A stretch of 64,000 nucleotides of DNA. Origin: Streptosporangium brasiliense (GTDB taxonomy: Bacteria > Actinomycetota > Actinomycetes > Streptosporangiales > Streptosporangiaceae). Under the pieces are notes generated by a model. The model searched no databases, had not been told where the DNA came from, and was given only the letters and a program-made list of their open reading frames with translations. The stretch is taken from assembly GCF_030811595.1 (NCBI RefSeq), contig NZ_JAUSRB010000001.1:1674001-1738000 (forward strand). The letters are read 5' to 3'. A program made the position numbers and the translations under genes. Below are positions 9,174 to 53,521 of the stretch, piece by piece; within the stretch, counting starts at the first letter, position 1, and the number at the start of each line of letters is the position of its first letter.

Positions 9174-10157
9174 CTAGCCGGAGAGCTGCTCCAGCGCCCT
9201 GACCAGGGAGGCGGTGCTCCGGTCGCGGAGCGGGGCGTAGTCCGCCTCCGGATACTGGCGGGGGCCGTTCTCCACCAGAATGATCAGCGCGAGGTAGAGG
9301 CGGTAGAGGGCCAGCCGGGCCCGGGCGGAGTCGGTGAACTCCACCACGCCGCCCGCCTCCCGGTATCCCGCCACGATCTCGTCGGCCTCGTCCAGCTCAC
9401 CGAAGATCGTCGGAGTGACGAAGTCGGCCAGCGGGTCGCCCCAGAACGCCCGCTCGTGGTCGATGATGGCCTGGATGCGCGGGGCGTCGCCGGGAGTCAG
9501 GAAGACGTTGCCCGGCCACACGTCGAAGTGGACCAGGGACGGCGCCGTCACCTCCTCCAGCACACCCGCGTTCGCCTCGATCACCGCCGAGATCTCGGCG
9601 GCCGGCCTCGGCAGCGGCGTCGCGTAACGGCGCGCGTCGGCCAGGATCGCGCCGGTCATCGTCAGGAAGGCGGCCCGCCAGGTGCCGCCGGTCAGACCGG
9701 CGTGCGGGTAGCCGTAGACGTCGCCGGTGACCGCGTTCAGCCGGGCCAGATGGCCGCCGAGCTCCCGGCGGAGCGCGCGCTGGTCGGCCTCCGCCGGGCT
9801 GACCCGGTTCCACGGCACGCCGCCGAGGGCGGACAGGACGAGGTAGTCGCCGCCCAGCACCGGATCGTCGAACCCGGCGCACAGCAGCTCCGGACCCGGC
9901 ACCCCGGCCGGTCCGGCCAGGGCGTAGACCATCGCCTCGGTGCGCAGGAGGTTACGTTCGTAGCGGAGCTGCTCCAGCTCCGGCGGGGGCGACAGCTTGA
10001 GCACCACCTCGCGGCCGTCCTCCAGCGTCAGCCGCCACACGGCGTTGGCGAAGCCGTCGGTCAGCTCCGCGGAGGCGGTGACCCCGCTGCCCAGGGCCCG
10101 CCGCGCCAGCGCGTCGAGCTCGGCGGCAGTGAGCGGGCGCTTGGTTCTGCTGTCCAT
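9174..10157 (-). CDS. Aminoglycoside-phosphotransferase-fold small-molecule kinase
   Basis: The protein has 327 residues. The N-lobe contains VVLKLSPP (ATP-binding Lys). The C-lobe has HFDVWPGNVF, the HxDxxxxN catalytic loop, and IIDHERAFWGDPLAD, the metal-binding segment. This is the APH/choline-kinase fold, which phosphorylates aminoglycosides, sugars or other alcohols. It starts nine bases after the aldose epimerase stop, at the end of the cellobiose operon, so a sugar substrate is more likely than an antibiotic. That is inference from position only. Reading continues without breaks, and length is normal for the family. Confidence 0.85.
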   Translation of the reverse strand: MDSRTKRPLTAAELDALARRALGSGVTASAELTDGFANAVWRLTLEDGREVVLKLSPPPELEQLRYERNLLRTEAMVYALAGPAGVPGPELLCAGFDDPVLGGDYLVLSALGGVPWNRVSPAEADQRALRRELGGHLARLNAVTGDVYGYPHAGLTGGTWRAAFLTMTGAILADARRYATPLPRPAAEISAVIEANAGVLEEVTAPSLVHFDVWPGNVFLTPGDAPRIQAIIDHERAFWGDPLADFVTPTIFGELDEADEIVAGYREAGGVVEFTDSARARLALYRLYLALIILVENGPRQYPEADYAPLRDRSTASLVRALEQLSG

Positions 10158-29436: not shown

Positions 29437-29784
29437 GGCGTCCTCCCTCGGACGGGGGGACCGCTCCCCGCCCCAGGGCGGGCAGGCTGATCCGCCCCTG
29501 ATCGATGTGGTCCACTATTCCCATCCGGATATGCCCGAATTGGTGCGGCCGATACGGCCGGCCAGGGTGATTTCCTGCCGGGAGGGACGCCCCGCCGAAC
29601 CCGGCCCGCCCGGTCCTGTCCCTGCCCGCCCGGTCCCGTGGCGCCGCGCCCGGCGCCCGCCGCCGCACCCCCGCCGCCTACTGACCGGACACTCAGGATT
29701 GCCAGCGAGAAGCTGCAGAAAAGCCAAATAGATGATGTCAAATCGAGCTATTGTGGCAGGAGTGGGACTTGTAAGATCTCGCGC
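29437..29784. other. Divergent intergenic region
   Basis: This holds the promoters of the hydrolase (left) and the MFS-GH2 operon (right). The last 90 bases, 29690-29780, are AT-rich. TTGCCA at 29699 could be a -35 element, but no matching -10 is clear. No gene is supported. Confidence 0.4.
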
Positions 29785-31074
29785 GTGACAGCAGCAGTCG
29801 TCCCCCGGCTGAGCCCGCGGCTCTGGACCGCCCTGATCGTCCTCGGCTCCGTCGGCCAGGTGGCCTGGACCGTCGAGAACATGTATCTCAACGTGTTCGT
29901 CTACGACACGATCAGCGACGACCCCGGAGCCATCGCGGCGATGGTCGCCGCCAGCGCGCTGGCGGCGACGCTGGCGACGATGCTGATCGGAGCCCTCTCC
30001 GACCGCGCCGGCCGCCGCAGGGCGTTCATCTCGGCGGGCTACGTGCTGTGGGGGCTGGTCACCGCCGCGTTCGGGTTCGTCACCGTGGACGCGGTCACGG
30101 GCCTGGTCCCCGCGGCCGAGGCCGTCCTCGTCGCGGTGGCCGCCGTCATCGTCCTGGACTGCCTGATGTCCTTCCTCGGGGCCGGGGCCAACGACGCGGC
30201 CTTCCAGGCGTGGGTCACCGACGTGACGCATCCGGGCAACCGCGGCAGGGTCGAGTCGGTCCTGGCGATCATGCCGCTGGTGTCGATGCTGGCCGTCTTC
30301 GGCGGCTTCGACTCCCTCACCCGGGCGGGGAACTGGCGGCTGTTCTTCCTGCTCACCGGGGCGGTGATCGTCGTGGTCGGGGTGGCCTCCTGGTTCCTCG
30401 TGCGGGACCGGCCCGCCCCGGCGCGGCGGGAGGGCGGCTACCTGGGCTCTGTCGTCCACGGCCTGCGCCCGGCCGCGATGCGCGCCGACCCGGGCCTCTA
30501 CCTCGCGCTGGCGGCGTGGTCGATCTGGGGGATCTCCACGCAGGTCTTCCTGCCCTATCTGATCATCTACGTGCAGCGATACCTGCACATCGAGGCGTAC
30601 GCCGTCGTCCTGGCCGTGGTCCTGACCGGCGCCTCGGCCGTCAGCGTCGGCTGCGGCCGGTACGTCGACCGGATCGGCAAGATCCGCTTCCTGCTGCCGG
30701 CGGTCGCGGTGTACGGGGCGGGGCTGCTGCTGATGGCCGTCGCGCGCGGCATGGGCCCGGTGATCGCGGCCGGGCTGGTGATGATGTCGGGCTTCATGCT
30801 CGTCCTGGCGCCCCTCGGCGCGATCGTCCGCGACTACTCGCCGCCGGGCCGGGCCGGGCAGGTCCAGGGGCTGCGGATGATCTTCGCGATCCTCATCCCC
30901 ATGATCGTCGGACCGTCCCTCGGCGCCGTCGTGATCAAGGGGGCCGACGAGTACTACGAGGAGCTGGGCGTGCTCAGACAGGTCCCCACGCCGGCCATCT
31001 TCCTGGCCGCCGCGGCCGTGCTGCTGCTCATCGTGGTGCCCGTGCTGGCGCTGCGCCGGAGGGAGACCCGATGA
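29785..31074 (+). CDS. MFS transporter, probably glycoside uptake
   Basis: The protein has 429 residues from GTG 29785; an in-frame extension upstream to 29638 lacks a start signal. Twelve hydrophobic segments are visible. GALSDRAGRRRAFISAGYVLWG is the helix 2-3 loop. GRVESVLAIMPLVSML and YVDRIGKIRFLLPAV flank the central loop. It overlaps the GH2 glycosidase gene by four bases (ATGA), so translation is coupled and the sugar imported is presumably the glycosidase's substrate. Family knowledge: GPH-like MFS proteins often accompany beta-galactosidases and beta-glucuronidases. Confidence 0.85.
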   Translation: MTAAVVPRLSPRLWTALIVLGSVGQVAWTVENMYLNVFVYDTISDDPGAIAAMVAASALAATLATMLIGALSDRAGRRRAFISAGYVLWGLVTAAFGFVTVDAVTGLVPAAEAVLVAVAAVIVLDCLMSFLGAGANDAAFQAWVTDVTHPGNRGRVESVLAIMPLVSMLAVFGGFDSLTRAGNWRLFFLLTGAVIVVVGVASWFLVRDRPAPARREGGYLGSVVHGLRPAAMRADPGLYLALAAWSIWGISTQVFLPYLIIYVQRYLHIEAYAVVLAVVLTGASAVSVGCGRYVDRIGKIRFLLPAVAVYGAGLLLMAVARGMGPVIAAGLVMMSGFMLVLAPLGAIVRDYSPPGRAGQVQGLRMIFAILIPMIVGPSLGAVVIKGADEYYEELGVLRQVPTPAIFLAAAAVLLLIVVPVLALRRRETR

Positions 31075-32825
31075 GCCTGCTCACCCGCTGGGGCGCCGAC
31101 CTCGACCCCGACGCGATCCTGCCCGAGTATCCCCGGCCCCAGCTCGCCCGCGACAGCCATCTCAACCTCAACGGCCGCTGGGAGTACGCCATCACCGGCA
31201 CCGAGGAGGAGCCCGAGACCTACGACGGCGTCATCCTCGTGCCGTTCTCGCCGGAGTCGACGCTGTCGGGCGTCGGCCGGCAGCTGCTGCCGGACCAGAC
31301 GCTGTGGTACCGGCGCGCGCTGACCCCGCCCGGCGGGTTCCTGCCCGCCGACGGCGCGCCGGTCCGGGTGCTGCTGCACTTCGGCGCGGTGGACCAGACG
31401 TGCCGGGTGCTGCTCAACGGCGTCGAGGTCGGCGGCCACACCGGCGGCTACCTGCCTTTCACCTGCGACATCACCGACGCCCTGCGCGACGGCGAGAACA
31501 CGCTGGTGGTCGCGGTGCGCGACGCCTCCGACACCGGACACCACGCGCGCGGCAAGCAGAAGCTGAAGCGCGGCGGCATCTGGTACACCGCCCAGTCGGG
31601 CATCTGGCAGAGCGTGTGGGCCGAGTGCGTGCCCGCCGTCCACGTGGAGCGGCTGACCCTCACCCCGCACCTCGACGAGGGGTGCGTCGAGGTGACCGTG
31701 CACGCCACGGCGGCCGGGGACGCCCGGGTCGAGATCCTCGCCGCCGGGACCGCCGTCGCGCGGGCCGTCGTGCCGGCGGGACGGCCGGTGCGCGTCCCGA
31801 TCCCGGACGTGCGGCCGTGGAGCCCGGAGGACCCCTTCCTGTACGACGTCACGGTGGAGCTCGGCGCCGACCGCGTGCGCAGCTACGTCGGGATGCGCTC
31901 GTTCTCCGTGGGGCCGGACGAGAACGGCGTGCCCCGGCTGCTGCTCAACGGTCGTCCCTACTTCCACGCCGGGATCCTGGACCAGGGGTACTGGTCCGAC
32001 GGCATGTACACCGCGCCGTCGGACGAGGCGATGGTCCACGACATCGCCACGATGAAGCAGCTCGGCTTCACCATGCTGCGCAAGCACATCAAGATCGAGC
32101 CGCTGCGCTGGTACTACCACTGCGACCGGCTGGGCATGCTCGTCTGGCAGGACATGGTCAACGGCGGCGGCCGTTACCACCCGCTGGTCATCACCGCGCC
32201 CGTGCTCACCCCGCTGCGGCTCGGCGACCGCCGCCACCGGTGGTTCGGGCGGGCCGACGCGGAGGGCCGGGCCCGGTTCCGCGCCGAGCTCCGCGACACC
32301 GTGGAGCACCTGCGCAACGTGGTGAGCCTGGCCGTCTGGGTGCCGTTCAACGAGGGCTGGGGGCAGTTCGACGCGGCGCGGATCGCCGCCGAGGTCGCCG
32401 AGCTCGACCCCACCCGCACGGTCGACCACGCCAGCGGCTGGCACGACCAGGGCGGGGGCGACCTGAAGAGCCTGCACGTCTACTTCCGCCGCTTCCGCGT
32501 GCCGCGCCGGCGCCGCGGCGACCGGCGGGTCCTCGTGCTGTCGGAGTACGGCGGCTACAACCTGCGGGTGGACGGCCACGCCTTCAACGACAGGGACTTC
32601 GGCTACCGGCGCTACGGTTCGGCCGGGCAGCTCGGCGAGGCGTTCGGCCGCCTGCACGCCGAGCAGGTCGTCCCGGCCATCCGCCGTGGCCTGAGCGCGA
32701 CCGTCTACACCCAGCTCTCCGACGTCGAGGACGAGCTGAACGGGCTGCTCACCTACGACCGCGAGGTGCTCAAGCTGCCCGCGGAGCTGGTGCGCTCGGT
32801 CAACGCCCGGCTGCGGCCGGAGTGA
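31071..32825 (+). CDS. GH2 family glycoside hydrolase
   Basis: The protein has 584 residues. Residues 35-215 are the sugar-binding jelly roll (NLNGRWEYAI, VLLHFGAVDQTCRVLLNG, GGYLPFTCDITDAL). An immunoglobulin-like domain follows. The barrel has VWVPFNEGWGQFDA, with acid/base Glu in NEGW, and VLVLSEYGGYN, with the nucleophile Glu. Length near 580 and the NEGWGQFD form resemble the uncharacterised GH2 enzymes annotated as beta-galactosidase or beta-glucuronidase. It has no signal peptide, so it is intracellular and coupled to the MFS importer. The exact sugar cannot be assigned. Confidence 0.88.
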   Translation: MSLLTRWGADLDPDAILPEYPRPQLARDSHLNLNGRWEYAITGTEEEPETYDGVILVPFSPESTLSGVGRQLLPDQTLWYRRALTPPGGFLPADGAPVRVLLHFGAVDQTCRVLLNGVEVGGHTGGYLPFTCDITDALRDGENTLVVAVRDASDTGHHARGKQKLKRGGIWYTAQSGIWQSVWAECVPAVHVERLTLTPHLDEGCVEVTVHATAAGDARVEILAAGTAVARAVVPAGRPVRVPIPDVRPWSPEDPFLYDVTVELGADRVRSYVGMRSFSVGPDENGVPRLLLNGRPYFHAGILDQGYWSDGMYTAPSDEAMVHDIATMKQLGFTMLRKHIKIEPLRWYYHCDRLGMLVWQDMVNGGGRYHPLVITAPVLTPLRLGDRRHRWFGRADAEGRARFRAELRDTVEHLRNVVSLAVWVPFNEGWGQFDAARIAAEVAELDPTRTVDHASGWHDQGGGDLKSLHVYFRRFRVPRRRRGDRRVLVLSEYGGYNLRVDGHAFNDRDFGYRRYGSAGQLGEAFGRLHAEQVVPAIRRGLSATVYTQLSDVEDELNGLLTYDREVLKLPAELVRSVNARLRPE

Positions 32826-32831
32826 GGCCGG

Positions 32832-33815
32832 CTACCAGCGGTTACGCGCCTCCTCCGCCCAGCCGACCAGGCCGTCGAGGTCGACCCACGCGCCGTCGTC
32901 GGTCCGTGCCCGCCCGGCGAAGTGGCCGAAGCACTGGTGCGTCTCGCTGCCCACCACGCCGAGTTCGGTGCGCGCCACCTTCTCGTGGAAGGGGGTGAAC
33001 TCCACCTCGACCCGGGGACCGGTGATCCGCCACGGACGCAGCCAGTCGGCCCGGTCGTAACTCCAGGCCAGCTCCTCGCCGATCTTGTGCAGCCGGCCGT
33101 CCACGAACAGCGCGTTCTCCGTCATGCCGGTGCCGTCGGTCCACTTGCCGCCGAGCTGGATCGCCCGGCCGGGGCCGCTGCCCGCGGCCCAGTTCCAGGT
33201 GACCGAGTAGGGCCACTTGCCGCGGCCGTGGTCGAGCACCGCGAAGGAGTCCGCCTCGCTCACCGCGTGCTCGCCGGACTCCAGGCGCAGCCGCCCCCGC
33301 ACCGGACGCCCGACGTCCTTGAGGGTGTACTGGAACCGGCGGGGGCCCCACGGGACCACCACGCCGAGCGACTCGTGCCCGGCCGGCAGCGGTATGTCGA
33401 GGTCCAGCTCGACACCGGGCGCGACGGCGCGCAGCGACGTGCCGCCGGGGTGCTGGCCGATGTCGACCGTCACGCCGCCGCCCCTTACCGACGCCGTCCC
33501 CGCACCGCTGCGCGGGGGCATCGCGGCCCCGCGCGCCAGCGGCACCACGGCGTCCTTGGAGATCTCCGCGCCGGTGGCGCGGTCCAGGACGTAGAGGCCG
33601 TGCACGCCCGCGTAGTCCAGCGACGACGCCACGACGCCGATCACGTGGGAGGGGGTGACGATCCCCCAGTATTCCCAGCGTTTGGCCCGTCCCCAGCCGC
33701 GCAGGTTCGCGCGGTGCAGCGGGCGCCGCGTCCAGCCGACCGCCTCCGGGTTGAGGCGCCCGTCCGGCAGGCACAGGTCGACGGGGGCGGTGATCTCCCG
33801 CTCGTGGGTCGGCAT
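32832..33815 (-). CDS. DUF2804 family protein
   Basis: The protein has 327 residues and no signal peptide. It shows the blocks I associate with DUF2804: ITAPVDLCLPDGRLNPEAVGW, HRANLRGWGRAKRWEYWG, PRRFQYTLKD, VLDHGRGKWPYSVTWNWAAGSG and a C-terminal HQCFGHFAGRA. The family has no known activity. It is predicted to be beta-rich, perhaps lipocalin-like, and conserved Trp, His and Arg residues hint at a binding pocket. It ends six bases from the GH2 stop, convergent, and has its own start. Confidence 0.82.
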   Translation of the reverse strand: MPTHEREITAPVDLCLPDGRLNPEAVGWTRRPLHRANLRGWGRAKRWEYWGIVTPSHVIGVVASSLDYAGVHGLYVLDRATGAEISKDAVVPLARGAAMPPRSGAGTASVRGGGVTVDIGQHPGGTSLRAVAPGVELDLDIPLPAGHESLGVVVPWGPRRFQYTLKDVGRPVRGRLRLESGEHAVSEADSFAVLDHGRGKWPYSVTWNWAAGSGPGRAIQLGGKWTDGTGMTENALFVDGRLHKIGEELAWSYDRADWLRPWRITGPRVEVEFTPFHEKVARTELGVVGSETHQCFGHFAGRARTDDGAWVDLDGLVGWAEEARNRW

Positions 33816-33999: not shown

Positions 34000-34572
34000 A
34001 TGCGCGGGCTCGTGTGGATGAAGGACGAGGGCGCCGAATACGCGGAGGTCGGCCTGGGGGCGGAGCTGACGGCGGTCGGCGTGGCTATCGGCACCGACCC
34101 CATGCCCTACCGGCTGGAATACACCCTGCGGACCCTCCCCGGATACGTCACCGAGCTGCTGTCGGTACGGGCCCACGGCACGGGCTGGTACCGGGCGCTC
34201 GACCTGCGCCGCTCGGCCCACGGCACCTGGTCGTGCGAGACGAAGGGGGAGGGCCGCCTCGACGGGCCGCCGCCCGGCGGGGACATGAACGTCCTGAACG
34301 ACTCGCTCGACTGCGACCTGGGGCTCTCCCCGCTGACCAACACCATGCCGGTGCTCCGGCACGGCCTCAACGAGTGCGAGGGGCGGATCGACTTCGTCAT
34401 GGCCTGGGTCCGGGTCCCGCACCTGCACGTGGTCCGCCACCCCCAGCGCTACACCCACCTCGGCCCGGGGTCCGTGCGCTACGAGAGCGAGGGCTTCAGC
34501 GCCGACCTCGCCTTCGACGGCGACGGGATCGTCACCGACTACCCCGGCCTGGCGAAGCTGGTCGCCTCCTGA
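34000..34572 (+). CDS. Putative glycolipid-binding-fold protein (Glycolipid_bind family)
   Basis: The protein has 190 residues and no signal peptide. MRGLVWMKDEGAEYAEVGLG opens it, RLEYTLRTLPGYVTELL and RALDLRRSAHGTWSCE follow, and DLGLSPLTNTMPVLRHGL is the most conserved block. VVRHPQRYTHLGPGSVRYES ends it. This matches the putative glycolipid-binding family, a beta-sheet fold of unproven function. GGACGAGG sits just before the ATG. It is convergent with the NRPS gene that follows. Confidence 0.8.
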   Translation: MRGLVWMKDEGAEYAEVGLGAELTAVGVAIGTDPMPYRLEYTLRTLPGYVTELLSVRAHGTGWYRALDLRRSAHGTWSCETKGEGRLDGPPPGGDMNVLNDSLDCDLGLSPLTNTMPVLRHGLNECEGRIDFVMAWVRVPHLHVVRHPQRYTHLGPGSVRYESEGFSADLAFDGDGIVTDYPGLAKLVAS

Positions 34573-34641: not shown

Positions 34642-37600
34642 TCACCCGCTCCGGCCGGCGCCCTCCAGCAGGACGGCGTCCGCCTCGACCTGGACCGCGT
34701 CCAGATCATCGGCGATCTCGGCGCCCGCCACCGCGTCGGGCAGCGCGTCCTCCATCCGGCGCAGCGGCCGGTACCACAGCCCCAGCGCGCCCCAGAGCAT
34801 CAGCAGCGCACCGCAGACGGTCAGCAGCAGCCCGACGCCGCGCCCCGGCCCCACCCCGATGACGTCACCGACGAGTGTGTCCGCCAGGGCGCCGCCCGGG
34901 ACGAGCAGCGGGCCGAAGACGTCGTCGGCCAGCGACGGCGCGGTGAGGAACGCCAGCGGCGTCATCGACACCGCCAGCATCTGGTTGGTGGCCAGCACCC
35001 GGCCCTGCAGCTCCAGGCCGACCTTGAGCTGGATGAGCGCCAGCCAGTGCGCGTTCAGCACGGTGAGGAACACCCACGACATCAGCCCGCCGAAGGCCGC
35101 CAGCGCCAGCGAGGGCCGCAGCCCGACCAGCAGCACCCCGGCCCCGAAACCGATCACGAAGCCGACCATGCCGATCGCGCGACGCTCGGTGCCACCCCAG
35201 AACACCATGACCAGCGAGCCGAGCACCGCGCCCACGCCCTGCATCGCGGTCACCGCGCCCACGCCCGCGACGTTGCCGAACGACAGCACCGCGGGCACGG
35301 TCACGGCCAGGGCGAGCATGTTCAGGTAGTTCATCACGACGAAGAACCCGATCATGATCATCAGGGGGCGGCGCCGTACGAGGAAGCGCCAGCCGCCGAC
35401 GATGGCCTGCCCGAAGGTCTCCTCCAGGCGGTAGAACAGCCGGTCGGGGAAGCGGACCAGCAGCAGCGTGCCGAGCCCGGCGAGGAAGGTGACCACGTCC
35501 ACGGCCACCACGCCGTGCAGGCCGACCAGCGCGATGAGCGCGGCGCCGCCCAGCGGGCCGATGAGCATGCCCAGACCGGTGCCGAGGTTCGCCACCGCGT
35601 TGGCCTGCATGAGGTACGGCTTGGGCACCAGCTGCGCCACCGCCGCCAGGTAGGCGGGCCGGTGGAAGGCCGTCACCAGCGACAGCAACCCGGCGATGAT
35701 CCCGACCTGCCAGACCTCCAGCCGCCCCAGCCACAGCAGGATCACCAGGGCCGCGGTGGCCGCGGCGGAGACGCCGTCGCACACCAGCATGACCCGCCTG
35801 CGGTCCACCCGGTCGGCGACCGCGCCGCCCAGCGGCGCCGCCAGCAGCGACGGCAGCAGCGCGAGCATGCTGACCAGGGCGTAGTCCAGCACCCGGCCGC
35901 TCTCCTGGTAGGCCCACACGCCCAGCGCGAAGGAGGTCAGCGCGGCACCGAGCAGCGACACGGTCTGCCCGGCCGCGACGGTGTAGAAGCGGCGCAGGTC
36001 CCGGCGGGCGCTCCGGCCCGCGACCTCGACCTCCCCGACCGGCTCGGGCAGGTCGCCGCCGGCCCAGCGGTCCAGGTGCTCGGAGATGTGCCGGGCCAGG
36101 GGCTCGGCCTGGTGCTTGATGAAGTAGTGACCGGCCCGGGGGATCGTGGCCAGCCCCACCCGGTCGGCGAACGCCCCCCACTCCCGGTAGCGCTCCTGGT
36201 AGAGCTCGGTCGCGCGGTCCCGCTCGCCGATCACGCACAGCAGCGGCGCCGCGAGCCTGCGCTCCTCGCCGGCGGGGGTGTCGAGGTGGCGGCTGAACCA
36301 CGCCTGCGCCTCCTCGACGTCGTGCCGCAGGCCGCGCAGCATGGTCTCGGTGTCGCCGAAGTCCTCGTCCAGGGCGCCCAGCGTGCGCAGGAAGTCGCGC
36401 TGGGTGCGGTCGGAGGCCCAGCGATGGGCGGGGAACCTCCGGTTCCACCAGGCCGACAGCCGTCCGGGCAGCCGGGCGTCGGGGAAGCTGCCGCCGACGA
36501 AGACGCCGGCGACCGGGGTCCCGGACGCCTCCAGCCGCAGCGCCAGCTCGGTCGCGGCGGCCGAGCCGACGCAGTGTCCGTACAGCGCGATCGGGCCGGG
36601 TCCCCCGGGCAGCTCGGCCAGCTCGGCCACGATCCGGCCGACGAGCTCCGGCATCGGCAGCATGGCCTCGTCCGGCCGGGCCGGGTCGTGTCCGGGCAGC
36701 TCGACGGCCAGCACCGCCGTGGTGGGGGAGATACGGGTCAGCGCGGCGGCGAGCGGCTGGTAGGCGGCGGCCGAGCCGCCGCCGTAGGGCAGGCAGACGA
36801 CGGTACGGCTCGCCGTGCGCGGACCGGCCAGCCGGTGCAGCAGCCCGGCCGGGGCCTCGGCGCCGCCGTCGAGGTGGGCGGCCAGCTCGCGGACCGTGGG
36901 CCGGGTGAACAGGTCGATCACCCGCAGCGACGGGTCGATCTCCCGGACCGCCCGGACCGCGCGGAAGGAGTCGCCGCCCAGTGCGAAGAAGTCGTCGTCG
37001 ACGCCGACCTCGACGTCCAGGATGTCCGCCCACACCGCGGCGATGCGCACCTCGGTCGGCGTGCTCGGCGCGACCCGCTCCGCGGCGGGCGCCGCCTCGG
37101 GGATCGGCAGGCGGGCCCGGTCGACCTTGCCCAGCGGGGTGAGCGGCAGCTCGTCGAGGACGACGATCGCGGGCGGGACCATGTAGTCGGGCAGCCGCTC
37201 ACGCAGCCCCGCCCGGATCACCGCGAGGTCCACCGAGGCGGGCGCGACCCAGGCGGCCAGCCGCCGGGAGCGGCCCTCGCCGACCGGCAGCACCGCGGCC
37301 TCCCGGACCCCGGGCTGCTCCTGCAGCGCGGCCTTCACCTCGCCCAGCTCCACCCGGAAGCCCCTGATCTTGACCTGGTCGTCGACCCGGCCGAGGAACT
37401 CCACCAGCCCGGCGGAGTTGAGCCGGACCCGGTCGCCGGTGCGGTAGCAGCGGTCGGCCCCGGTCACCGGGTCGGGGACGAACCGCTCGGCGGTCAGGTC
37501 GGGGCGGTTCAGGTAGCCGCGGGCCAGGCTGGGGCCGGCCACCCACAGCTCGCCCGGCACCCCGGCGGGCAGCGGACGGCCCGCGGGGTCGACGACGTAG

Positions 37601-39981
37601 CAGTCGACGCCGGCCAGCGGGCGGCCCAGCGGGACCGACCCCGACCCCGACGGCGGATCGGGCACCCGGCCGCCGAGCACCGAGACCGTCGTCTCCGTCG
37701 GCCCGCAGTGGATCTGCACCTCCAGGTCGGGGTCGGCCGCCCGGACACGCTCGGCCAGCTCCCACGACGTCGCCTCACCGGCGAGGATCAGCAGCCGGCG
37801 CGGCAGCATCCGGGCCAGGTCGCCGTGGGCGGCCAGCAGCTCCAGATGGCTGGGCACCATCTTGATCACATCGATGGGATGCTTCGCGAGGTAGGCGGCG
37901 TACGCCTCCGGGTCGGTGGCGGCGTCCTGGTCCACGAGATGGACCGCGGCGCCCCGGACGAGGGCGCCGTACAGGCAGGTCAGCACCAGGTCGGAGGCGA
38001 TCGTGGAGACCATGCCGTAGGAGGAGCAGTCCTCGGGCACCAGCTCGGCCAGGCCGTGCAGGTAGTGCAGCGCCGACCGGTGCTCGATCGCGGCGCCCTT
38101 GGGCCGCCCGGTGGAGCCCGAGGTGAAGATCACATGCGCGAGGTGGCCGGGGGTGACGTCGACCTCCACGGGCCCGTCGGGCCCGGCGGCCAGCAGGTCG
38201 GGCAGGACCAGCGTGCCGGGGACCCGGCCGGCGTGTTCACGGTCGGCCAGCACGACGCGCGCGCCGGCCGTCTCCAGCATGTAGGCGAGGCGGTCGTCGG
38301 GGTAGGCGGGCTCCATCGGCATGTAGGCCCCGCCCGCCCGCAGCACGCCGAGGAGCGCGGGGACCAGCACGGAGCGGCGGTCCACCAGCACCCCGACCGG
38401 CTCGTCCGGCCGCACCCCGGCCGCGGCCAGGTGACGTGCCAGGCGGTCGGCCAGCCGGTCCACCTCGCCGTAGGTGAGCGATCCGGAGGCGTCCACCACG
38501 GCGGTCGCCTCCGGCGTGCGCCGCGCCCAGTCGCCGACCACCGCGTGCAGCGGCCGGGTCAGGTCCATCCGCGTCCGCGCGCCCGCGACGGCGGGCCCGG
38601 TCACCGGCTCCAGCGGCACGGCCGCCGCGGGCGCGTCCAGGTCGGCGAGCATGCCCTCCAGCAGGTTCAGGTACCAGCCGGTCATGCGCCGCACGGTCGC
38701 CTCGTCGAACAGGTCGGTGCGGTAGGTGAGCTCGCCGTCGTACTCGTCCCCGTCGTTGACGAAGGCGAGGTTGAGGTCGTACTTGGTGGTGCGCGGCGCA
38801 GGCGGTGCCTGCTCCGCGGTCAGGCCGGGGAAGTCCAGCACCTGGGGGCGGTCGTCCAGGACGTTGAGCAGCGCCTGGAAGATCGGCGTGGTGGCGAGGC
38901 TGCGCTCGGGGTGCAGGTGCTCCACGATCCGCTCGAAGGGCACGTCGCGGTGGGTGAGGGCGTCCAGCACGGCGTCCTTGGTCCGGGCCAGCAGCTCGCG
39001 GCCGGTCGGCTCGCCGGACCTGTCGCCGCGCAGGACAAGCGTGTTGACGAAGCAGCCGAGCATGCGCGCGGTGTCGGGGTGGAGCCGCCCCACCTCGGGC
39101 ACGCCGACCGGCACGTCGTCGGTGCCGGAGGTGCGGCCCAGCAGTTCCTGCCAGGCGGCCAGCAGCACCATGAACGGCGTGCAGCCGGTCTCGGCGGCGG
39201 CCTCGCGGACCCTGGCGGTCAGCGCGCGCGGCAGCCGCACCGGGACGGCGGCGCCGGACCAGTCGGCCACCGACGGCCGGGCCCGGTCCACGGGCAGGTC
39301 CAGGACGGGTTCGAGCCCGGCCAGCCGTCCGGTCCACCAGGCGAGGTCGCCCTCCGGCTGCCCGGCCAGCCAGGCCGCGTAGTCGGCGTAGCGCACCTGC
39401 GGCGCCGCGGGCGGCCCGGCCAGGCCGAGCCGTGCCGCGTACAGGGCGGCCAGCTCGGCCAGTGCCAGGTTCCGCGACTGGGCGTCGAAGGCGATGTGGT
39501 GCACCGTCAGCGCCAGGACGTGCTCGTCGGCGCCGGTGAGGCGGAGCAGCAGGGCGCGGGTGGGCGGCTCGGAGTCCAGCGCGAACGGGCGGGCGACCTC
39601 CTCCCGCAGCCGCTCCTCCAGCAGATCGTGGTCGTCGAGGTCCTCGACCGCGATCGGGACCCGGCCGGCGTCGACCGGGGTGGCGCCCTCGTCGGTGACC
39701 AGGCTGCGCAGCACCTCGTGCCGGTCCGCGAGGTCGCGCACGGCGCCCAGCAGCGCGGCGACGTCCAGCGGGCCGCGCAGCCGTACGACGGCGGGCACGT
39801 TGTAGGCGGCCAGGTCGTCGAGCTGGGCGAGGAACCACAGCCGGGCCTGGGCCGGGGACAGGGGAGCGGGGCCACCGGTCGTCTCCCTGGCGGGGATCGC
39901 CGGGACGGCCTGGGCGGCGGCGCGGCGCGCGGCCGACAGCCGCGCCGAGAGGGCGCTGCGGCGCTCGTCACTGACGGTCAT
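34642..39981 (-). CDS. NRPS terminal module fused to thioesterase and MFS exporter (C-A-PCP-TE-MFS)
   Basis: The protein has 1,779 residues, with GGAGGAGG four bases before the ATG. Domains: condensation about 45-455 (TVHHIAFDAQ near 161; last Gly of HHxxxDG is Ala); adenylation about 480-980 (TSGSTGRPKG near 624, GELWVAGPSLARGYLN); PCP with the phosphopantetheine Ser1005 in ALGGDSFRA; thioesterase about 1060-1300 with YGHCVGSA (Cys1137 in the usual Ser place), GERDR Asp and RAGHYF His; then an MFS exporter from about 1325 with about 12 helices (GGAVADRVDRRRVML loop). It follows the other NRPS gene by 130 bases. It should add the last residue, release the product and export it. The adenylation pocket reads near D-L-T-K-I-A-H-V-S-K by my alignment to GrsA, closest to aspartate codes. 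Confidence 0.9.
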   Translation of the reverse strand: MTVSDERRSALSARLSAARRAAAQAVPAIPARETTGGPAPLSPAQARLWFLAQLDDLAAYNVPAVVRLRGPLDVAALLGAVRDLADRHEVLRSLVTDEGATPVDAGRVPIAVEDLDDHDLLEERLREEVARPFALDSEPPTRALLLRLTGADEHVLALTVHHIAFDAQSRNLALAELAALYAARLGLAGPPAAPQVRYADYAAWLAGQPEGDLAWWTGRLAGLEPVLDLPVDRARPSVADWSGAAVPVRLPRALTARVREAAAETGCTPFMVLLAAWQELLGRTSGTDDVPVGVPEVGRLHPDTARMLGCFVNTLVLRGDRSGEPTGRELLARTKDAVLDALTHRDVPFERIVEHLHPERSLATTPIFQALLNVLDDRPQVLDFPGLTAEQAPPAPRTTKYDLNLAFVNDGDEYDGELTYRTDLFDEATVRRMTGWYLNLLEGMLADLDAPAAAVPLEPVTGPAVAGARTRMDLTRPLHAVVGDWARRTPEATAVVDASGSLTYGEVDRLADRLARHLAAAGVRPDEPVGVLVDRRSVLVPALLGVLRAGGAYMPMEPAYPDDRLAYMLETAGARVVLADREHAGRVPGTLVLPDLLAAGPDGPVEVDVTPGHLAHVIFTSGSTGRPKGAAIEHRSALHYLHGLAELVPEDCSSYGMVSTIASDLVLTCLYGALVRGAAVHLVDQDAATDPEAYAAYLAKHPIDVIKMVPSHLELLAAHGDLARMLPRRLLILAGEATSWELAERVRAADPDLEVQIHCGPTETTVSVLGGRVPDPPSGSGSVPLGRPLAGVDCYVVDPAGRPLPAGVPGELWVAGPSLARGYLNRPDLTAERFVPDPVTGADRCYRTGDRVRLNSAGLVEFLGRVDDQVKIRGFRVELGEVKAALQEQPGVREAAVLPVGEGRSRRLAAWVAPASVDLAVIRAGLRERLPDYMVPPAIVVLDELPLTPLGKVDRARLPIPEAAPAAERVAPSTPTEVRIAAVWADILDVEVGVDDDFFALGGDSFRAVRAVREIDPSLRVIDLFTRPTVRELAAHLDGGAEAPAGLLHRLAGPRTASRTVVCLPYGGGSAAAYQPLAAALTRISPTTAVLAVELPGHDPARPDEAMLPMPELVGRIVAELAELPGGPGPIALYGHCVGSAAATELALRLEASGTPVAGVFVGGSFPDARLPGRLSAWWNRRFPAHRWASDRTQRDFLRTLGALDEDFGDTETMLRGLRHDVEEAQAWFSRHLDTPAGEERRLAAPLLCVIGERDRATELYQERYREWGAFADRVGLATIPRAGHYFIKHQAEPLARHISEHLDRWAGGDLPEPVGEVEVAGRSARRDLRRFYTVAAGQTVSLLGAALTSFALGVWAYQESGRVLDYALVSMLALLPSLLAAPLGGAVADRVDRRRVMLVCDGVSAAATAALVILLWLGRLEVWQVGIIAGLLSLVTAFHRPAYLAAVAQLVPKPYLMQANAVANLGTGLGMLIGPLGGAALIALVGLHGVVAVDVVTFLAGLGTLLLVRFPDRLFYRLEETFGQAIVGGWRFLVRRRPLMIMIGFFVVMNYLNMLALAVTVPAVLSFGNVAGVGAVTAMQGVGAVLGSLVMVFWGGTERRAIGMVGFVIGFGAGVLLVGLRPSLALAAFGGLMSWVFLTVLNAHWLALIQLKVGLELQGRVLATNQMLAVSMTPLAFLTAPSLADDVFGPLLVPGGALADTLVGDVIGVGPGRGVGLLLTVCGALLMLWGALGLWYRPLRRMEDALPDAVAGAEIADDLDAVQVEADAVLLEGAGRSG

Positions 39982-40111: not shown

Positions 40112-43100
40112 TCACGACCCCTCCTCCAGGTCGTCCAGCAGCAGGGCCTCCAGCCGCGCGGCGTAGTCGGCCAGCGTCCGCCGTTCGAACAGCAGGCGCA
40201 CCGGCACCCGCAGGTCCAGGGCGTCGCTCAGCCGGGCCGTCACGAGGGCGGCGGTCGCGGAGTGACCGCCGAGGGCGAAGAAGTCGTCGTGCGCGCCGAG
40301 GTCGGAGCGGTCCAGAACGGCGGTCCACACCTCGGCGACCAGCAGCTCGGCCTCGGTGCTCGGCGGCACCCGGGTGGCCGCGTCGCCGGGTTCGGGCAGG
40401 GCGGTGCGGTCCACCTTGCCGGAGGCCGTGACGGGCAGCGCGTCCAGGAGCACCCAGCGGCGGGGGACCATGTAGTCGGGGAGCCGGGAGCCCAGGCGCC
40501 GCTCCAGCTCGCCGGTGTCGGTCCCCGGCGGCGCGGCGAGGTAGCCGACCAGGTGGTCGCCGCCGTGCACGGTCACGGCCGCGTCGGCGACGCTCTCGCG
40601 GAGCACGGTCTCGATCTCGCCCAGCTCGATCCGGTGGCCGCGGACCTTCACCTGCCGGTCCCGGCGGCCGAGGAAGTCGAGTGTGCCGTCGGGCCGCCAG
40701 CGGGCCAGGTCGCCGGTGCGGTAGCGGCGCCCGCCCAGCGGGTCCTCGGTGAAGGCCGCGGCGGTCAGCTCCGGCCGCCCCCGGTACCCCCTGGCCACGC
40801 CGGCGCCGCCGATCCACAGCTCACCGGGCGTCCCGGCGGGCAGCACGCGGCCCGCCCGGTCGAGCACGTAGGCCCGCTCCCCGGCCAGCGGGACGCCGAT
40901 CGACACCGGGTCGCCGGCCGGGGCGGTGACCCGGACCATGGTGGAGTAGATCGTGGTCTCGGTGGGCCCGTAGGCGTTCCACAGCTCGGCGACCCGCTCC
41001 AGCAGGTCACCGGCGAGGGCGGCGTCGAGCACCTCGCCGATGCTGACCACGCGCACGTCCCCGCCGCGCCAGCCGGAGGCGACCAGCATGCGCAGCGCCG
41101 TCGGGGTCGCGGTCATCAGCGTGACCCCCGTCTCCTCGATCCGCCGCGCGACGGCCCGCCCGTCGAGCGCGTCGTCCCGGCCCAGCAGCTCCAGCCGCAG
41201 GCCGTGGCAGAGGCTCACCCACAGGTCGAAGCCGAACACGTCGAACGAGAACGGCGTCAGGCCGAGCATCACGTCGCCGGGCCGGATCCCCGGGGCGAGC
41301 GTCATCGAGGAGACGAACGCGGCGAGGTTGGCGTGGGTGACCTCGACGCCCTTGGGGTTCCCGGTGGAGCCGGAGGTGTAGAGGACGTAGGCGAGGTCGC
41401 CGGGCTCCACCGGGGAGGGACCGCCGGCGTTCACCCCGTCCGGCGCCGCCCCCGCCGTGAACGGCCCGGCCAGGTCGACGACGGTGCCGCCCAGCCGCTC
41501 GGCCACCGCCAGCCCCTCGCCCGCCGCGATGATCATCTTGGTGCCGGAGTCGTCGACCTGGTGGCGGAGCCGCTGGAGCGGGTGGCCGGGGTCGAGCGGG
41601 ACGTAGGCGGCACCGGCGAGCAGCACGCCCAGCAGCGCCGCGGGCAGGTGCCGGTCGCGGGGCAGGCACACGCCCACGCAGGCGCCCGCGGCCGCCGGGC
41701 CCAGCGCCGCGGCCACCTGGCGTGACCGGTCGGCCAGCTCGCCGTAGCTGAGGACGCCGTCGGCGTCGACGACCGCCGGGGCGTGCGGGTGCCGTGCGGC
41801 CCGCTCCAGCACCGCCTCCACCACGGTCCGCGGCGCGTCCGCGGGCAGCGGCACGCCGGTCCCCGCGGCCAGCAGCGCCGCCCGCTCCTCGGCGCCGACC
41901 ACCTCGAACGCCGACAGCGGCCGGTCGGGGTGGGCCAGCGCGTCCGCCAGCAGGCGGACCAGCCGGTCGGTGAGGATCTCGGCGCCGGAGCGGTCCAGGT
42001 GCTCCACGTCGTACTCGACCTGGAGCTCGGGCCCGGCCGCCGTGTCGTTGAGGTAGACGATCAACGGCGCCTGGGCACTGCCCGCGTCCAGCTCGCCGAC
42101 CAGGTCCACGCCCACGCCCCCGCGTTCCAGACGGACGGGGACCGCGGGCGGCTGGATCGAGAGCGTGACGGGCGTCAGCACCGCGCCGGGCGGGCGCTCG
42201 ACCCCGCTGACCTCGGCCCGTTCCCACGCGGACAGCGCGCGGTGGTCCATCGCGCGGGCGGTCACGGCCCCCGCGTGCCGTACGGCCTCGCGCAGCGACA
42301 GCCCGTCCTCCAGGCGCAGCCGTACCGGCAGCACGTCGACCAGCATGCCGACCACGGCCTCCAGACCGGGGTCGGCGCGGTCGGCCACGGCGGCGCCGAG
42401 GACGACGTCCCGCCGGTCGGTCAGCCCGGCGACCAGCATGCCGAGCACGGTCAGGTAGACGGCGAACGGGGTGGCGCCGCAGCCGGCCGCCAGCTCGCCG
42501 GCCTGCGCGGTCGTCGCCGGGGTGAGCCGGCGCACCAGGCGCTCGCCGCGCAGCCGGCTGGGGCGGCCGTCGGGGCGGGGCAGCAGCTCGTACGGCGGGA
42601 CCGCCCCGGCGAGCTCCTCGGCCCAGAAGGCCCGCAGCGCCTCGGTGCTCCCGCCGGCCGCCTGCTCGCGCAGCGCCACGTCGCCGATCTGGAACGGCGG
42701 CTCCGGGATGTCGCCGGGGCGGGTGAGCCCGTCGAGGAGCTCCCGCATGACGATCCCCAGCGACCAGCCGTCGAAGGCGGTGTGGTCGGTGAGGAGCACC
42801 AGCTCCGCGCTGTCCGGCCCCGACCACAGGAGGGTGGCCCGCAGCAGCGGCGACTCGCCGGAGATGTCGAAGTCGTGGGCGACCGCGGCCCGTCGCAGCG
42901 CGTCGGCCTCCCGTTCCGAGGCCGGGCGGTGCTCCTCCAGCGGCACCGGCACCGGCGGCCCGATCTCCAGGGTCGCGCCGTCCACGACGAGGGTGCGCAG
43001 CGCCTCGTGGCGGCGCACGATCGCGTCCAGCGCGGCGCGCAGCGGCTCCGCCGAGGTGAGGCCGCGCAGCCCGAGCCGGAAGGCGATGGCGGTGGCGCCG

Positions 43101-44962
43101 GGGTTGTGGCTGACCTCGCGCAGCAGGCACATGCCGCGATGGGCGGCGGTCAGCGGATAGCCGGTCCGCCCGGCGTGGCGGACCAGCGGCGTCACGGCGG
43201 ACGGGGCGGCCTCGGCGACGTACGAGGCCAGCTCGGCGACCGTGGGCCGCGCCAGGAGCGTCGTCAGCGGGACGTGGACCCCGAGCGCGTGCTCGATCCT
43301 GGCGCAGATCTTGGCGGCGGCCAGGGAGTGCCCGCCCAGGTCGAGGAAGTGGTCGTGGACGCCGACCCGCTCGGCGCCGAGCACCTCGGAAGTGATGGCG
43401 GCGAGCCGCCGCTCGGTCTCGTCGCGGGGGGCGACGTGGCCGGTCCCGGCCGTGCCCGTGGCGGCGACGGAGCCGGAGGAGCCGGGGGCGGAGGAGAACG
43501 CCACCGCGGGCAGCCGGGAGCGGTCGGCCTTCCCCGTGGGGCCGACCGGGATGGCGTCGAGGAACACGATCCTGGAGGGGATCATGTAGTCGGGCAGCCA
43601 GTCGCGCAGCCAGGACCGCAACCGCCCGCCGTCGAGGCCGGGGCCGGCCGGTTCGACGTAGGCGACCAGCCGCCGGGTGCCCTCCCCGTCGACGGGGGCG
43701 AGCACGACGGCGTGGTTCACCAGCGGGTGGCGCACCAGCCTGCCCTGCACCTCGCCCAGCTCGACGCGGAAGCCCGCGACCTTCACCTGGTCGTCGATCC
43801 GCCCCTCGTAGAAGTAGGTCCCGCCCGATCTGCGGACCAGGTCGCCGGTGCGGTAGTGGCGCACGCCCGCGGCGTCGGTCACGAACCGCTCGGCGGTCAG
43901 CTCGGGCCGGTTCAGGTAGCCCCGGCCGACCAGCGGACCGGCCACCCACAGCTCGCCGAGCTCGCCGTCGCCGAGCGCCTCGCCGCCGGCGCCGCGCACC
44001 GACAGCTCCGACCAGGCGTACGGCGTGCCGATCGGCGGCTCGCCCGTCTCGTCCCTGGGGATCTCGTGCGCGCAGCAGTGCACGGTGCACTCGGTGGGCC
44101 CGTACAGGTTCACCATGCGTCGCACGCCGGGGTTGGCGAAGACGCGGTCGGCCAGCGCCCGGCTCACCGGCTCACCGCTGGAGAGCACCGTGCGCACCCC
44201 CGGGGGCAGCGGCTCCCGCAGCAGCGCGGTCAGCGCCGAGGCCGCCGCGCTGATCATCGTGACCTCGTCCCTGGCGGGCAGGGTGTGCAGCGCGAGGGGG
44301 TTCTCCGCCATGATCACCGTGCCGCCCAGCAGCAGGGGGAGGTAGAGCTGGGGGACGGACGGGTCGAAGCAGACCGAGGTCGAGGCGAGGAACCCGGCCA
44401 GCTCCTCGGCGGTGAAGTGGTCGGCGTCCCAGCGCAGCAGCGTCATCACGTTGCGGTGTTCGATCACGACGCCCTTGGGGCGCCCGGTCGAGCCGGAGGT
44501 GTACATGACGTAGGCCAGGTCGGCCGGGTCGCTCGGCAGGCCCGGATCGCCGTCCGGGCGGTCGCCGACCGCGTCCACCAGGATGAGTTCACTGCCGGGC
44601 AGCCGCTCCGCCAGCGCCGCGGAGGTCACCGTGTGTGACACCCCGGCGTCCTCGGCGATGAACTCCAGCCGGTCGGCCGGGTAGGCCGGGTCCAGCGGCA
44701 CGTAGGCGGCGCCGGTCTTCCAGACGCCCAGTAGTGCCGCGATCAGCGTCTCGTCGCGGTTCAGGCACACGCCGACGGTCGAGCCCCGCCGTACCCCCCG
44801 AGCGACGAGCTCGTGGGCTATCCGGTTGGCCTGGACGTTCAGGTCAGCGTAGGTCGTGCGGGTCGTGCCGGCGATGACCGCCGTGCGATGGGGAGTGCGT
44901 CGCGCCTGCTGCTCGAAGGCATTGTGGACCGGTCCGAGCGATGCGAGGTTGCCAGCCACCAC
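40112..44962 (-). CDS. NRPS, two modules (A-PCP-C-A-PCP)
   Basis: The protein has 1,616 residues from GTG 44962, chosen because AAGGAG lies four bases upstream; in-frame ATGs at 45043 and 44992 lack a site. Domains: A1 about 15-500 (YTSGSTGRPKG near 155, FDPSVPQ pocket start), PCP1 Ser near 543 (DLGGHSLAA), C about 600-1030 (LLTDHTAFDGWS near 731, first His replaced by Asp but the catalytic His kept), A2 about 1050-1530 (YTSGSTGNPKG near 1198, NAYGPTETTIY), PCP2 Ser near 1566 (ALGGHSATAA). No epimerase, methyltransferase or starter condensation domain is seen, and no MbtH gene lies nearby. It loads residue 1, joins residue 2 and passes the dipeptide to the C-A-PCP-TE-MFS protein. Confidence 0.9.
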   Translation of the reverse strand: MVAGNLASLGPVHNAFEQQARRTPHRTAVIAGTTRTTYADLNVQANRIAHELVARGVRRGSTVGVCLNRDETLIAALLGVWKTGAAYVPLDPAYPADRLEFIAEDAGVSHTVTSAALAERLPGSELILVDAVGDRPDGDPGLPSDPADLAYVMYTSGSTGRPKGVVIEHRNVMTLLRWDADHFTAEELAGFLASTSVCFDPSVPQLYLPLLLGGTVIMAENPLALHTLPARDEVTMISAAASALTALLREPLPPGVRTVLSSGEPVSRALADRVFANPGVRRMVNLYGPTECTVHCCAHEIPRDETGEPPIGTPYAWSELSVRGAGGEALGDGELGELWVAGPLVGRGYLNRPELTAERFVTDAAGVRHYRTGDLVRRSGGTYFYEGRIDDQVKVAGFRVELGEVQGRLVRHPLVNHAVVLAPVDGEGTRRLVAYVEPAGPGLDGGRLRSWLRDWLPDYMIPSRIVFLDAIPVGPTGKADRSRLPAVAFSSAPGSSGSVAATGTAGTGHVAPRDETERRLAAITSEVLGAERVGVHDHFLDLGGHSLAAAKICARIEHALGVHVPLTTLLARPTVAELASYVAEAAPSAVTPLVRHAGRTGYPLTAAHRGMCLLREVSHNPGATAIAFRLGLRGLTSAEPLRAALDAIVRRHEALRTLVVDGATLEIGPPVPVPLEEHRPASEREADALRRAAVAHDFDISGESPLLRATLLWSGPDSAELVLLTDHTAFDGWSLGIVMRELLDGLTRPGDIPEPPFQIGDVALREQAAGGSTEALRAFWAEELAGAVPPYELLPRPDGRPSRLRGERLVRRLTPATTAQAGELAAGCGATPFAVYLTVLGMLVAGLTDRRDVVLGAAVADRADPGLEAVVGMLVDVLPVRLRLEDGLSLREAVRHAGAVTARAMDHRALSAWERAEVSGVERPPGAVLTPVTLSIQPPAVPVRLERGGVGVDLVGELDAGSAQAPLIVYLNDTAAGPELQVEYDVEHLDRSGAEILTDRLVRLLADALAHPDRPLSAFEVVGAEERAALLAAGTGVPLPADAPRTVVEAVLERAARHPHAPAVVDADGVLSYGELADRSRQVAAALGPAAAGACVGVCLPRDRHLPAALLGVLLAGAAYVPLDPGHPLQRLRHQVDDSGTKMIIAAGEGLAVAERLGGTVVDLAGPFTAGAAPDGVNAGGPSPVEPGDLAYVLYTSGSTGNPKGVEVTHANLAAFVSSMTLAPGIRPGDVMLGLTPFSFDVFGFDLWVSLCHGLRLELLGRDDALDGRAVARRIEETGVTLMTATPTALRMLVASGWRGGDVRVVSIGEVLDAALAGDLLERVAELWNAYGPTETTIYSTMVRVTAPAGDPVSIGVPLAGERAYVLDRAGRVLPAGTPGELWIGGAGVARGYRGRPELTAAAFTEDPLGGRRYRTGDLARWRPDGTLDFLGRRDRQVKVRGHRIELGEIETVLRESVADAAVTVHGGDHLVGYLAAPPGTDTGELERRLGSRLPDYMVPRRWVLLDALPVTASGKVDRTALPEPGDAATRVPPSTEAELLVAEVWTAVLDRSDLGAHDDFFALGGHSATAALVTARLSDALDLRVPVRLLFERRTLADYAARLEALLLDDLEEGS

Positions 44963-45103
44963 TGGTCTCCTTGGGGTACGGAAGGGGGGCATAGGCCGTA
45001 CGACGGCAAGGGTGGCAAAGGGCACTCGGACGATGTAAGGCAAAGATCGTTTTGTTACCCGAACGGTATTGATCGCAATAAATTACTCTTAAACAACATT
45101 TGA

Positions 45104-47249: not shown

Positions 47250-47286
47250 GCGGGGGCCTCCAGGGTTGTGGATGGGATCCCTAGGT

Positions 47287-47314
47287 CGGGCCGGGTGCTG
47301 CAACACCCGGCCCG
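47287..47314 (-). terminator. Hairpin between pullulanase and amylase genes
   Basis: CGGGCCGGGTG and CACCCGGCCCG form an 11-bp perfect stem with a CTGCAA loop, 19 bases after the pullulanase stop. It may end that transcript or attenuate read-through into the amylase gene. Confidence 0.65.
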
Positions 47315-47333
47315 GCGTTTCTCTGCTGACCCG

Positions 47334-53156
<5,823 letters not shown>

Positions 53157-53521
53157 CGGGGGGCCTCCGCGGAGTTGTTTCGAGGGTGTTGCCCGGAAGT
53201 TACTCACTGGACATGATCTATGCAATCCTTTGCCGAAACTTTCTGAATCACGATGGTCCCCGGGTCCTCGCCGAGGCTCCGGCCCGCGGGCGGCGGTAGG
53301 TGCGGCACCGCGGAAAGGCCCTCTGAGGTGCCGATCTTCCCTGTCCGGCCGGCCGCGGGCGGGATGCGGTCCGCACCTTTGGTGGAATATGTAACAACTT
53401 TGCAGACTCTTGCAGAAAGTTCTTCCAATGCGGTTCACGTCGGCGTAACGTCCGGCGTACTCCAACCCGGCCCGGTGGCTTCCCCGGCCCGGCCCGGTCC
53501 CCTGAACTATGAGGAGAAATG
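53157..53521. promoter_or_regulatory. Divergent pulA/malE control region with two LacI-type sites
   Basis: Two related motifs lie here. GAAACTTTC at 53235-53243 is inside CCGAAACTTTCTG, about 80 bases before the pullulanase start. GAAAGTTC at 53415-53422, inside TTGCAGAAAGTTCTT, is the same motif on the other strand, about 100 bases before malE. AACTTTGCA at 53396-53404 is a degenerate third. Related sites stand before the second lacI gene and before the PfkB gene. Family knowledge: Streptomyces amylase and malE promoters use CTTGCAG- and CTTTC-type operators for MalR. Confidence 0.6.

Follow-up and report, generated by a model that had tools for sequence, protein, structure and literature searches.

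A terminal peptide synthetase subunit joined to a putative cysteine-type thioesterase and a predicted MFS exporter in Streptosporangium brasiliense

What is gained when a nonribosomal peptide synthetase (NRPS) carries, in one polypeptide, both the domain that releases its product and a transporter that might export it? The question is raised by a locus of the soil bacterium Streptosporangium brasiliense. The window analysed here is a stretch of 64,000 nucleotides (contig NZ_JAUSRB010000001.1, positions 1,674,001 to 1,738,000), and coordinates below are those of the window.

Architecture of the gene pair

A sequence-only reading of this DNA had proposed that a single protein adds the last amino acid, releases the peptide and carries an exporter at its C-terminus. 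The corresponding open reading frame (1,779 residues, minus strand) begins with an ATG at 39981, just downstream of a GGAGGA that by eye resembles a ribosome site, and has no internal stops. A Pfam search of its product found condensation (C), adenylation (A), peptidyl carrier (PCP), thioesterase (TE) and MFS domains in that order, every match exceeding its curated cut-off, which bears out the joining of last module, TE and transporter. The C, A and PCP domains stand in the modular order of an NRPS. The A domain comprises an AMP-binding match (484-824) and its C-terminal part (881-952), the Thioesterase match (1060-1300) scores 62.6 bits against a cut-off of 26.4, and the transporter matches both MFS_1 (1336-1670; 77.6 bits, cut-off 33.4) and MFS_3 (1341-1647; 60.8 bits, cut-off 27). 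A second gene, directly upstream, encodes the first subunit, and Pfam likewise upholds the proposed two-gene, three-module system, A-PCP-C-A-PCP / C-A-PCP-TE-MFS.

34642..39981, minus strand: terminal NRPS subunit fused to exporter, C-A-PCP-TE-MFS, 1,779 residues (open reading frame, Pfam and six full-length orthologues)
38623..39867, minus strand: condensation domain, residues 39-453 (Pfam); HHxxxDG-type motif HHIAFDA
37126..38532, minus strand: adenylation domain, residues 484-952 (Pfam); code DLTKIAHVSK
36871..37047, minus strand: peptidyl carrier domain (PP-binding), residues 979-1037 (Pfam); GGDS site
36082..36804, minus strand: putative cysteine-type thioesterase, residues 1060-1300, ObiF1/SulM-like (Pfam, structure and sequence matches, alignment)
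34762..35976, minus strand: predicted MFS exporter domain, residues about 1336-1740, 12 predicted helices (Pfam and AlphaFold2 model)
40112..45043, minus strand: first NRPS subunit, A-PCP-C-A-PCP (Pfam; order from domain stretches and orthologues)
43508..44923, minus strand: first adenylation domain (Pfam); code DPPSLSLVHK
41870..43162, minus strand: module-2 condensation domain, residues 628-1058 (Pfam); motif DHTAFDG, catalytic second His retained
40394..41806, minus strand: second adenylation domain (Pfam); code DVFTVIAIYK

By eye, a start of the first subunit at a GTG (44962 or 44959) that follows AAGGAG is likelier than the TTG at 45043. The two NRPS genes are separated by 130 bases, within which there is no other obvious gene.

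Could the fused frame be an artefact? A frameshift or missed stop separating the TE and MFS parts was looked for in the window copy, and none was found. Because six congeneric orthologues are full length and free of stops (G012 93%, G010 91%, G011 90%, G002 90%, G001 87% and G007 87%), the fused frame is neither a product of chance nor a local frame error. Several of these congeneric records are Streptosporangium, and the locus of S. canum matches at 96% over TE-MFS. In comparisons of the window with eight orthologues, no domain reaches a dN/dS of 1 (TE 0.30-0.63, MFS 0.22-0.46); these values are rough, and they are probably too high because a GC3 of 0.97 compresses dS.

The thioesterase

Which kind of thioesterase would release the peptide? 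An alignment of 60 rows gave the following predicted catalytic residues.

36571..36573, minus strand: Cys1137, predicted TE nucleophile, in GHCVG (Cys in 59 of 60 rows, Ser in one)
36217..36219, minus strand: Asp1255, predicted triad Asp at 'position II' (60/60; aligned with the ObiF1 sequence)
36127..36129, minus strand: His1285, predicted triad His (60/60)

Position I, the Asp site of ordinary TEs, is occupied by Gly (46/60) or Ala (14/60), positions I and II being assigned by alignment. In a larger set of fused TEs, Cys was found in 116 of 117 rows (95 distinct), a count that leans to Cys because one of the two patterns of the collection scan contained YGHC; the rows found by profile alone have Cys in 31 of 31. 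Among solved structures the best sequence match is ObiF1 (123.6 bits, 1e-34), with RifR next (60.5 bits, 1.7e-15) and SulM at 40.7 bits (1.9e-9), and a Foldseek search with the AlphaFold2 model of the TE-MFS part (pLDDT 89.3) placed ObiF1 first and SulM at ranks 2 to 5. Type II editing TEs are free-standing and use Ser, whereas the TE here is embedded and has Cys. By these sequence marks, the domain is a cysteine thioesterase of the ObiF1/SulM type. ObiF1 and SulM are described as having a Cys nucleophile with the Asp moved to position II, and as making small products with a strained ring (PMC6668435, PMC11298585); the C1146S change in ObiF1 leads largely to hydrolysis (PMC6668435), and the nucleophile motif of SulM is given as QCN (PMC11298585).

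Five unfused ObiF1-like terminal TEs were found in four other actinobacterial genomes (L190-L193 and L195), three with Ser and two with Cys. The sole fused protein with Ser among the 60 rows is from a Streptomyces (L084:5288-12148, plus strand), a natural test of the Cys. Since Ser occurs in three of the five unfused TEs and in this fused one, Cys is no absolute requirement.

The MFS half and its arrangement with the thioesterase

Topology prediction for the C-terminal region agrees with the exporter placed there by the sequence-only reading, suggesting a 12-helix MFS transporter with the N-terminus, the C-terminus and the TE all cytoplasmic; Lys and Arg number 24 in the predicted cytoplasmic loops versus 3 in the outer loops, the helix limits being set partly by eye. 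The loop between helices 2 and 3 is, as we take it, MFS motif A.

35797..35814, minus strand: MFS motif A-like loop DRVDRR, residues 1390-1395 (alignment and topology)

This loop, the 12 predicted helices and the Pfam MFS match above cut-off are marks of the MFS exporter family. Six charged residues (Asp1390, Arg1391, Lys1454, Glu1521, Lys1653 and Arg1661) are each present in 60 of the 60 aligned rows, so that the loss of essential residues, which would speak against a working transporter, is not what was found: with these residues and the dN/dS given above, the MFS half is not degenerate. EntS and Mef exporters are among its relatives, though it stays under those models' cut-offs, scoring 177 bits with TIGR00900, an H+ antiporter subfamily (cut-off 319.6), and 65.7 bits with the EntS equivalog (cut-off 324). 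The full MFS transporters nearest in fold to the TE-MFS model are SPNS2 and MdfA (Foldseek).

A linker of about 25-30 residues leads from the TE to helix 1. AlphaFold2 models of the TE-MFS part of two paralogues (38% identity) gave pTM values of 0.85 and 0.84, their input alignments overlapping; considering that two proteins so far apart give such values, TE and MFS are taken to hold a defined mutual arrangement. As a hypothesis, the product might be channelled by direct hand-over from TE to pump.

Distribution and origin of the fusion

The genome of the window encodes five NRPS-TE-MFS proteins; the sixth-best MFS of the same kind stands alone in a protein of its own, and those after it drop from E 1e-112 to 1e-37. 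At E 1e-80, the TE-MFS profile finds a match in 127 of 297 genomes from the same family (three candidates scored per genome), 119 of them at 1e-236 or better and eight at 1e-82 to 1e-109. Since 1e-236 needs both domains, the 119 matches carry both TE and MFS. In 396 genomes across the phylum, scored at two candidates per genome so that rarer fused copies can be missed, a fused match occurs only in the window's own genome, and seven others match in the MFS part alone.

A scan of a named public collection matched 435 stretches, of which 417 were confirmed and the best 80 kept. All of these best 80 of 417 loci end in PCP-TE-MFS, with A directly before PCP in 76 by a simple domain search. They fall to Actinomycetota (67), Chloroflexota (6), Bacillota (4), Pseudomonadota (2) and Spirochaetota (1), some non-actinobacterial loci being metagenome bins in which misbinning is possible, and Herpetosiphon, Dyella, Rhodanobacter and Brevibacillus being named strains. 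The earlier remark that such fusions have been annotated in actinomycetes thus holds as far as their presence there (67 of the best 80 of 417), but they are not confined to that group and extend over five phyla. Brevibacillus and a Clostridia bin each have a single open reading frame of about 3,650 residues that contains three modules together with TE and MFS, which corresponds to the window's two genes joined in one. Loci of Dyella (L102:2-12199) and Rhodanobacter (L106:2-12196) have four modules, TE and MFS in one frame of at least 4,065 residues. In the copy of one genome (G288; L243:2707-7765), TE and MFS lie in an 881-residue frame with the upstream NRPS in another, the frame changing inside the A domain; TE and MFS share one frame, and the A-subdomain-PCP-TE-MFS part is apart from the NRPS part. 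This frame change is either a sequencing error or real damage.

Literature searches, with subscription journals mostly outside reach, found no paper on an NRPS-TE-MFS fusion. A product name along the lines of 'non-ribosomal peptide synthetase/MFS transporter' is in use at NCBI, so that the architecture is probably annotated in databases.

How did the fusion arise? The fused MFS domains (27 rows, five phyla) form one clade with support 100/100, and unfused MFS domains lie outside it. The nearest unfused clade, itself well supported, is represented by five distinct loci, and in four of them the MFS gene adjoins an NRPS that ends in a reductase; the exporter line would therefore have served NRPSs before the fusion. 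An unfused counterpart of the NRPS-MFS arrangement is present in the window's genome (L019:5868-12123, plus strand), where a reductase-ended NRPS gene is followed by a separate sister-clade MFS gene overlapping it by 8 bases, and then by an O-methyltransferase gene. In a set of 30 fused proteins, the distances between TEs and those between MFS domains are correlated with a Mantel r of 0.882, versus 0.668-0.798 for the other five domain pairs. In the TE tree, ObiF1 joins the five unfused actinobacterial TEs (95/79), outside the fused group. The fused TEs do not make one clade when the tree is left free; such a grouping is not rejected (p-AU 0.095), nor is a single clade of fused TEs with ObiF1 (p-AU 0.096). 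As far as the MFS tree shows, the MFS appears to have been fused once and to have stayed with its TE since.

Surroundings of the gene pair

Flanks (about 9-14 kb on the upstream side, 10 kb on the downstream side) were compared in 17 genomes, the window's and 16 others (open reading frames of at least 80 residues; tblastn, E 1e-12). Every open reading frame common to at least four of the 17 sits within the NRPS genes or on their opposite strand. Because no flanking gene is common to at least four of these genomes, the NRPS pair is, on this comparison, a self-contained unit, and no tailoring gene travels with it, as had been proposed. Among the matches listed, genuine flanking genes are common to the window, G012 and G010, and a few flank matches of 34-53% link G057, G118 and G226 at differing positions. 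In a second test of 16 named loci, the long downstream stretch is kept only in S. canum, and S. minutum keeps its first gene.

The further claim that there is no separate transporter nearby is not literally right. An MFS_1 gene (29638-31074, plus strand) lies about 3.6 kb from the NRPS end, near which no further transporter gene was seen; this MFS_1 gene probably belongs to sugar use, since a GH2 glycosidase gene (30048-32825, plus strand) comes next. Genes for a DUF2804 protein (32832-33815, minus strand) and a putative glycolipid-binding protein (34000-34572, plus strand) adjoin the NRPS end and are kept only in close relatives. Directly upstream of the pair lie starch genes (45216-53465, minus strand), encoding an alpha-amylase with CBM20 and CBM25 (696 residues) and then a 2,043-residue protein that combines an alpha-amylase domain with pullulanase domains. 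Farther off, a gene at 9174-10157 (minus strand) encodes a 327-residue APH-family phosphotransferase, of a family to which small-molecule kinases belong.

Recent horizontal transfer of the pair between genera was considered, since the flanks differ, and was not adopted. The ratio of cassette dS to uvrA dS, with this one control gene only, is 0.54-0.84 within the genus (5 pairs) versus 0.47-1.25 against other genera (7 pairs). Plasmid matches came from two records, both Embleya (35.8-52.5% identity), with no annotated feature beneath the match, and a PADLOC search with the 1,779-residue protein gave no match. A siderophore role was also considered and not adopted: the 10 ORFs covered in two paralogue-type clusters (L121 and L017/L018) include free-standing A and C domains along with E1/transketolase genes, and nothing siderophore-typical.

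Substrate codes and possible product

The ten-residue codes of the A domains were taken from the positions given by GrsA numbering. The third code, DLTKIAHVSK, presumably resembles Asp codes and is identical in the orthologues; the second, DVFTVIAIYK, may perhaps, with low confidence, point to an aromatic substrate. The first is identical in 11 named loci and different in the four Nonomuraea/Sphaerisporangium loci that show it. Across the family, 112 readable terminal codes, which are not independent, comprise 74 Asp-like, 21 Ser-like, 8 Gly-like, 2 Glu-like and 7 other.

Since ObiF1 is the nearest solved TE, a beta-lactone was considered as the product here, and was not adopted, given the Asp-like code and the lack of a hydroxylase recurring beside the pair: an Asp-like final residue has no beta-hydroxyl, so that a beta-lactone of the ObiF1 type does not follow. 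The terminal code offers no obvious beta-nucleophile for a strained ring. For the 21 Ser-like rows, a beta-lactone stays open.

Proposed mechanism and alternatives

The reading that we favour, with a rough probability of 0.66, is a membrane-anchored tripeptide synthetase whose product is released by the Cys-TE and exported by its own pump. Its scaffold can be read directly in the DNA: the order of the domains, active sites whose residues are intact, a single open frame, and a conserved fusion and two-gene unit. The first protein would load residues 1 and 2 and join them, and the second would add residue 3, for which we infer an Asp-like substrate from the code. The tripeptide would then pass from the carrier domain to Cys1137 of the built-in ObiF1/SulM-type TE, which would free it by ring closure or by water, two outcomes to which we give about even odds; a preference of the Cys-TE for intramolecular ring closure would be one further step beyond this scaffold. 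The C-terminal MFS would anchor the assembly line at the membrane and export the freed peptide. Proton antiport, the mode of related exporters, would be the probable mechanism of export, and a direct hand-over from TE to pump may be part of the process.

Perhaps, at slightly less than even chances, the fusion serves mainly as an anchor and for joint gene dosage, the TE hydrolysing a linear tripeptide and the MFS acting as an ordinary cluster pump with no hand-over. The mixed terminal codes are easier to reconcile with a release domain of general use than with a single set ring chemistry, and the unfused MFS relatives adjoin NRPSs ending in a reductase. Against this, the TE and its MFS diverge in step, the nucleophile is Cys in almost every row, and both models put the TE against the MFS at pTM 0.85 and 0.84, where we estimate about 0.6 for freely moving domains.

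How far might the favoured synthetase-with-pump reading be extended? In its boldest form, the fused proteins would be a multi-phylum class of single origin, in which a ring-closing Cys-TE is docked on an exporter and a small reactive peptide leaves without entering the cytosol; that peptide would be a strained ring or other short-lived product, formed at the mouth of the pump. We consider this joint claim tentative and rather unlikely.

A siderophore-like chelator with acidic residues, exported by an EntS-like pump, is improbable: the MFS does match MFS_3 and, weakly, EntS, and the terminal codes are often Asp-like or Ser-like, but catechol, hydroxamate and iron-uptake genes do not recur beside the pair in the 17 genomes, and in the window the pair is flanked by genes for starch and sugar use. 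That the MFS half is vestigial or a misassembled read-through with no role draws on the general rarity of NRPS-transporter fusions only, has scarcely any probability left, and is refuted on present data, barring a processing event, by the same frame in six orthologues, the fusion in 80/80 loci (best 80 of 417), purifying selection and the invariant MFS residues.

Comparison with known systems

The best solved match by sequence and fold, ObiF1, is the obafluorin synthetase (C-A-PCP-TE-MLP, beta-lactone-forming), which has the same Cys nucleophile, Asp at position II and a small residue at position I. It differs in ending in an MbtH-like domain with no pump, and in using a beta-hydroxy amino acid, versus the Asp-like code here. 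The beta-lactam-forming sulfazecin synthetase SulM also has Cys with Asp at position II and a small product, and differs in its nucleophile motif, its lack of an MFS and its weaker sequence match. RifR-type type II editing TEs, the third-best class by sequence and fold ranking, share the fold and the Asp at position II; they are free-standing Ser enzymes, whereas the window's TE is embedded after the last carrier domain and uses Cys.

The enterobactin proteins EntF and EntS resemble the window protein in that, as we understand them, a terminal C-A-PCP-TE protein works with an MFS_3 exporter; they are presumably encoded by separate genes, with a Ser TE. The window protein scores far under the EntF and EntS cut-offs, and these are family matches only. 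An MFS joined to an adenylating enzyme in one polypeptide has a precedent in NCBIfam PRK08633 (MFS plus AMP-forming acyl-ACP--phospholipid acyltransferase), whose model matches both the MFS and the adenylating parts of the window protein; PRK08633 differs in being a lipid enzyme with an N-terminal MFS and without carrier or TE domains. The epsilon-poly-L-lysine synthetase, which we take to be an NRPS with transmembrane parts, presumably has a membrane part that is not an MFS transporter. By analogy, then, the window protein may work as a terminal module of the ObiF1/SulM type would with an EntS-like pump attached.

Significance

Two points go beyond the sequence-only reading: the TE appears to be of the cysteine type rather than an ordinary serine TE, and the fused proteins make up a family that spans several phyla and has five members in this genome. 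That family connects the rare ObiF1/SulM TE type with a transporter in five phyla, so that the relation of TE chemistry to export can be put to a direct test. If the favoured reading is true, PCP, Cys-TE and MFS in one frame could also serve as a genome-mining handle for short peptides from minimal two-gene clusters, which would rank low in searches based on tailoring genes. On the same condition, release and export would be one step, which would offer a testable explanation of how bacteria that make small reactive peptides avoid harming themselves.
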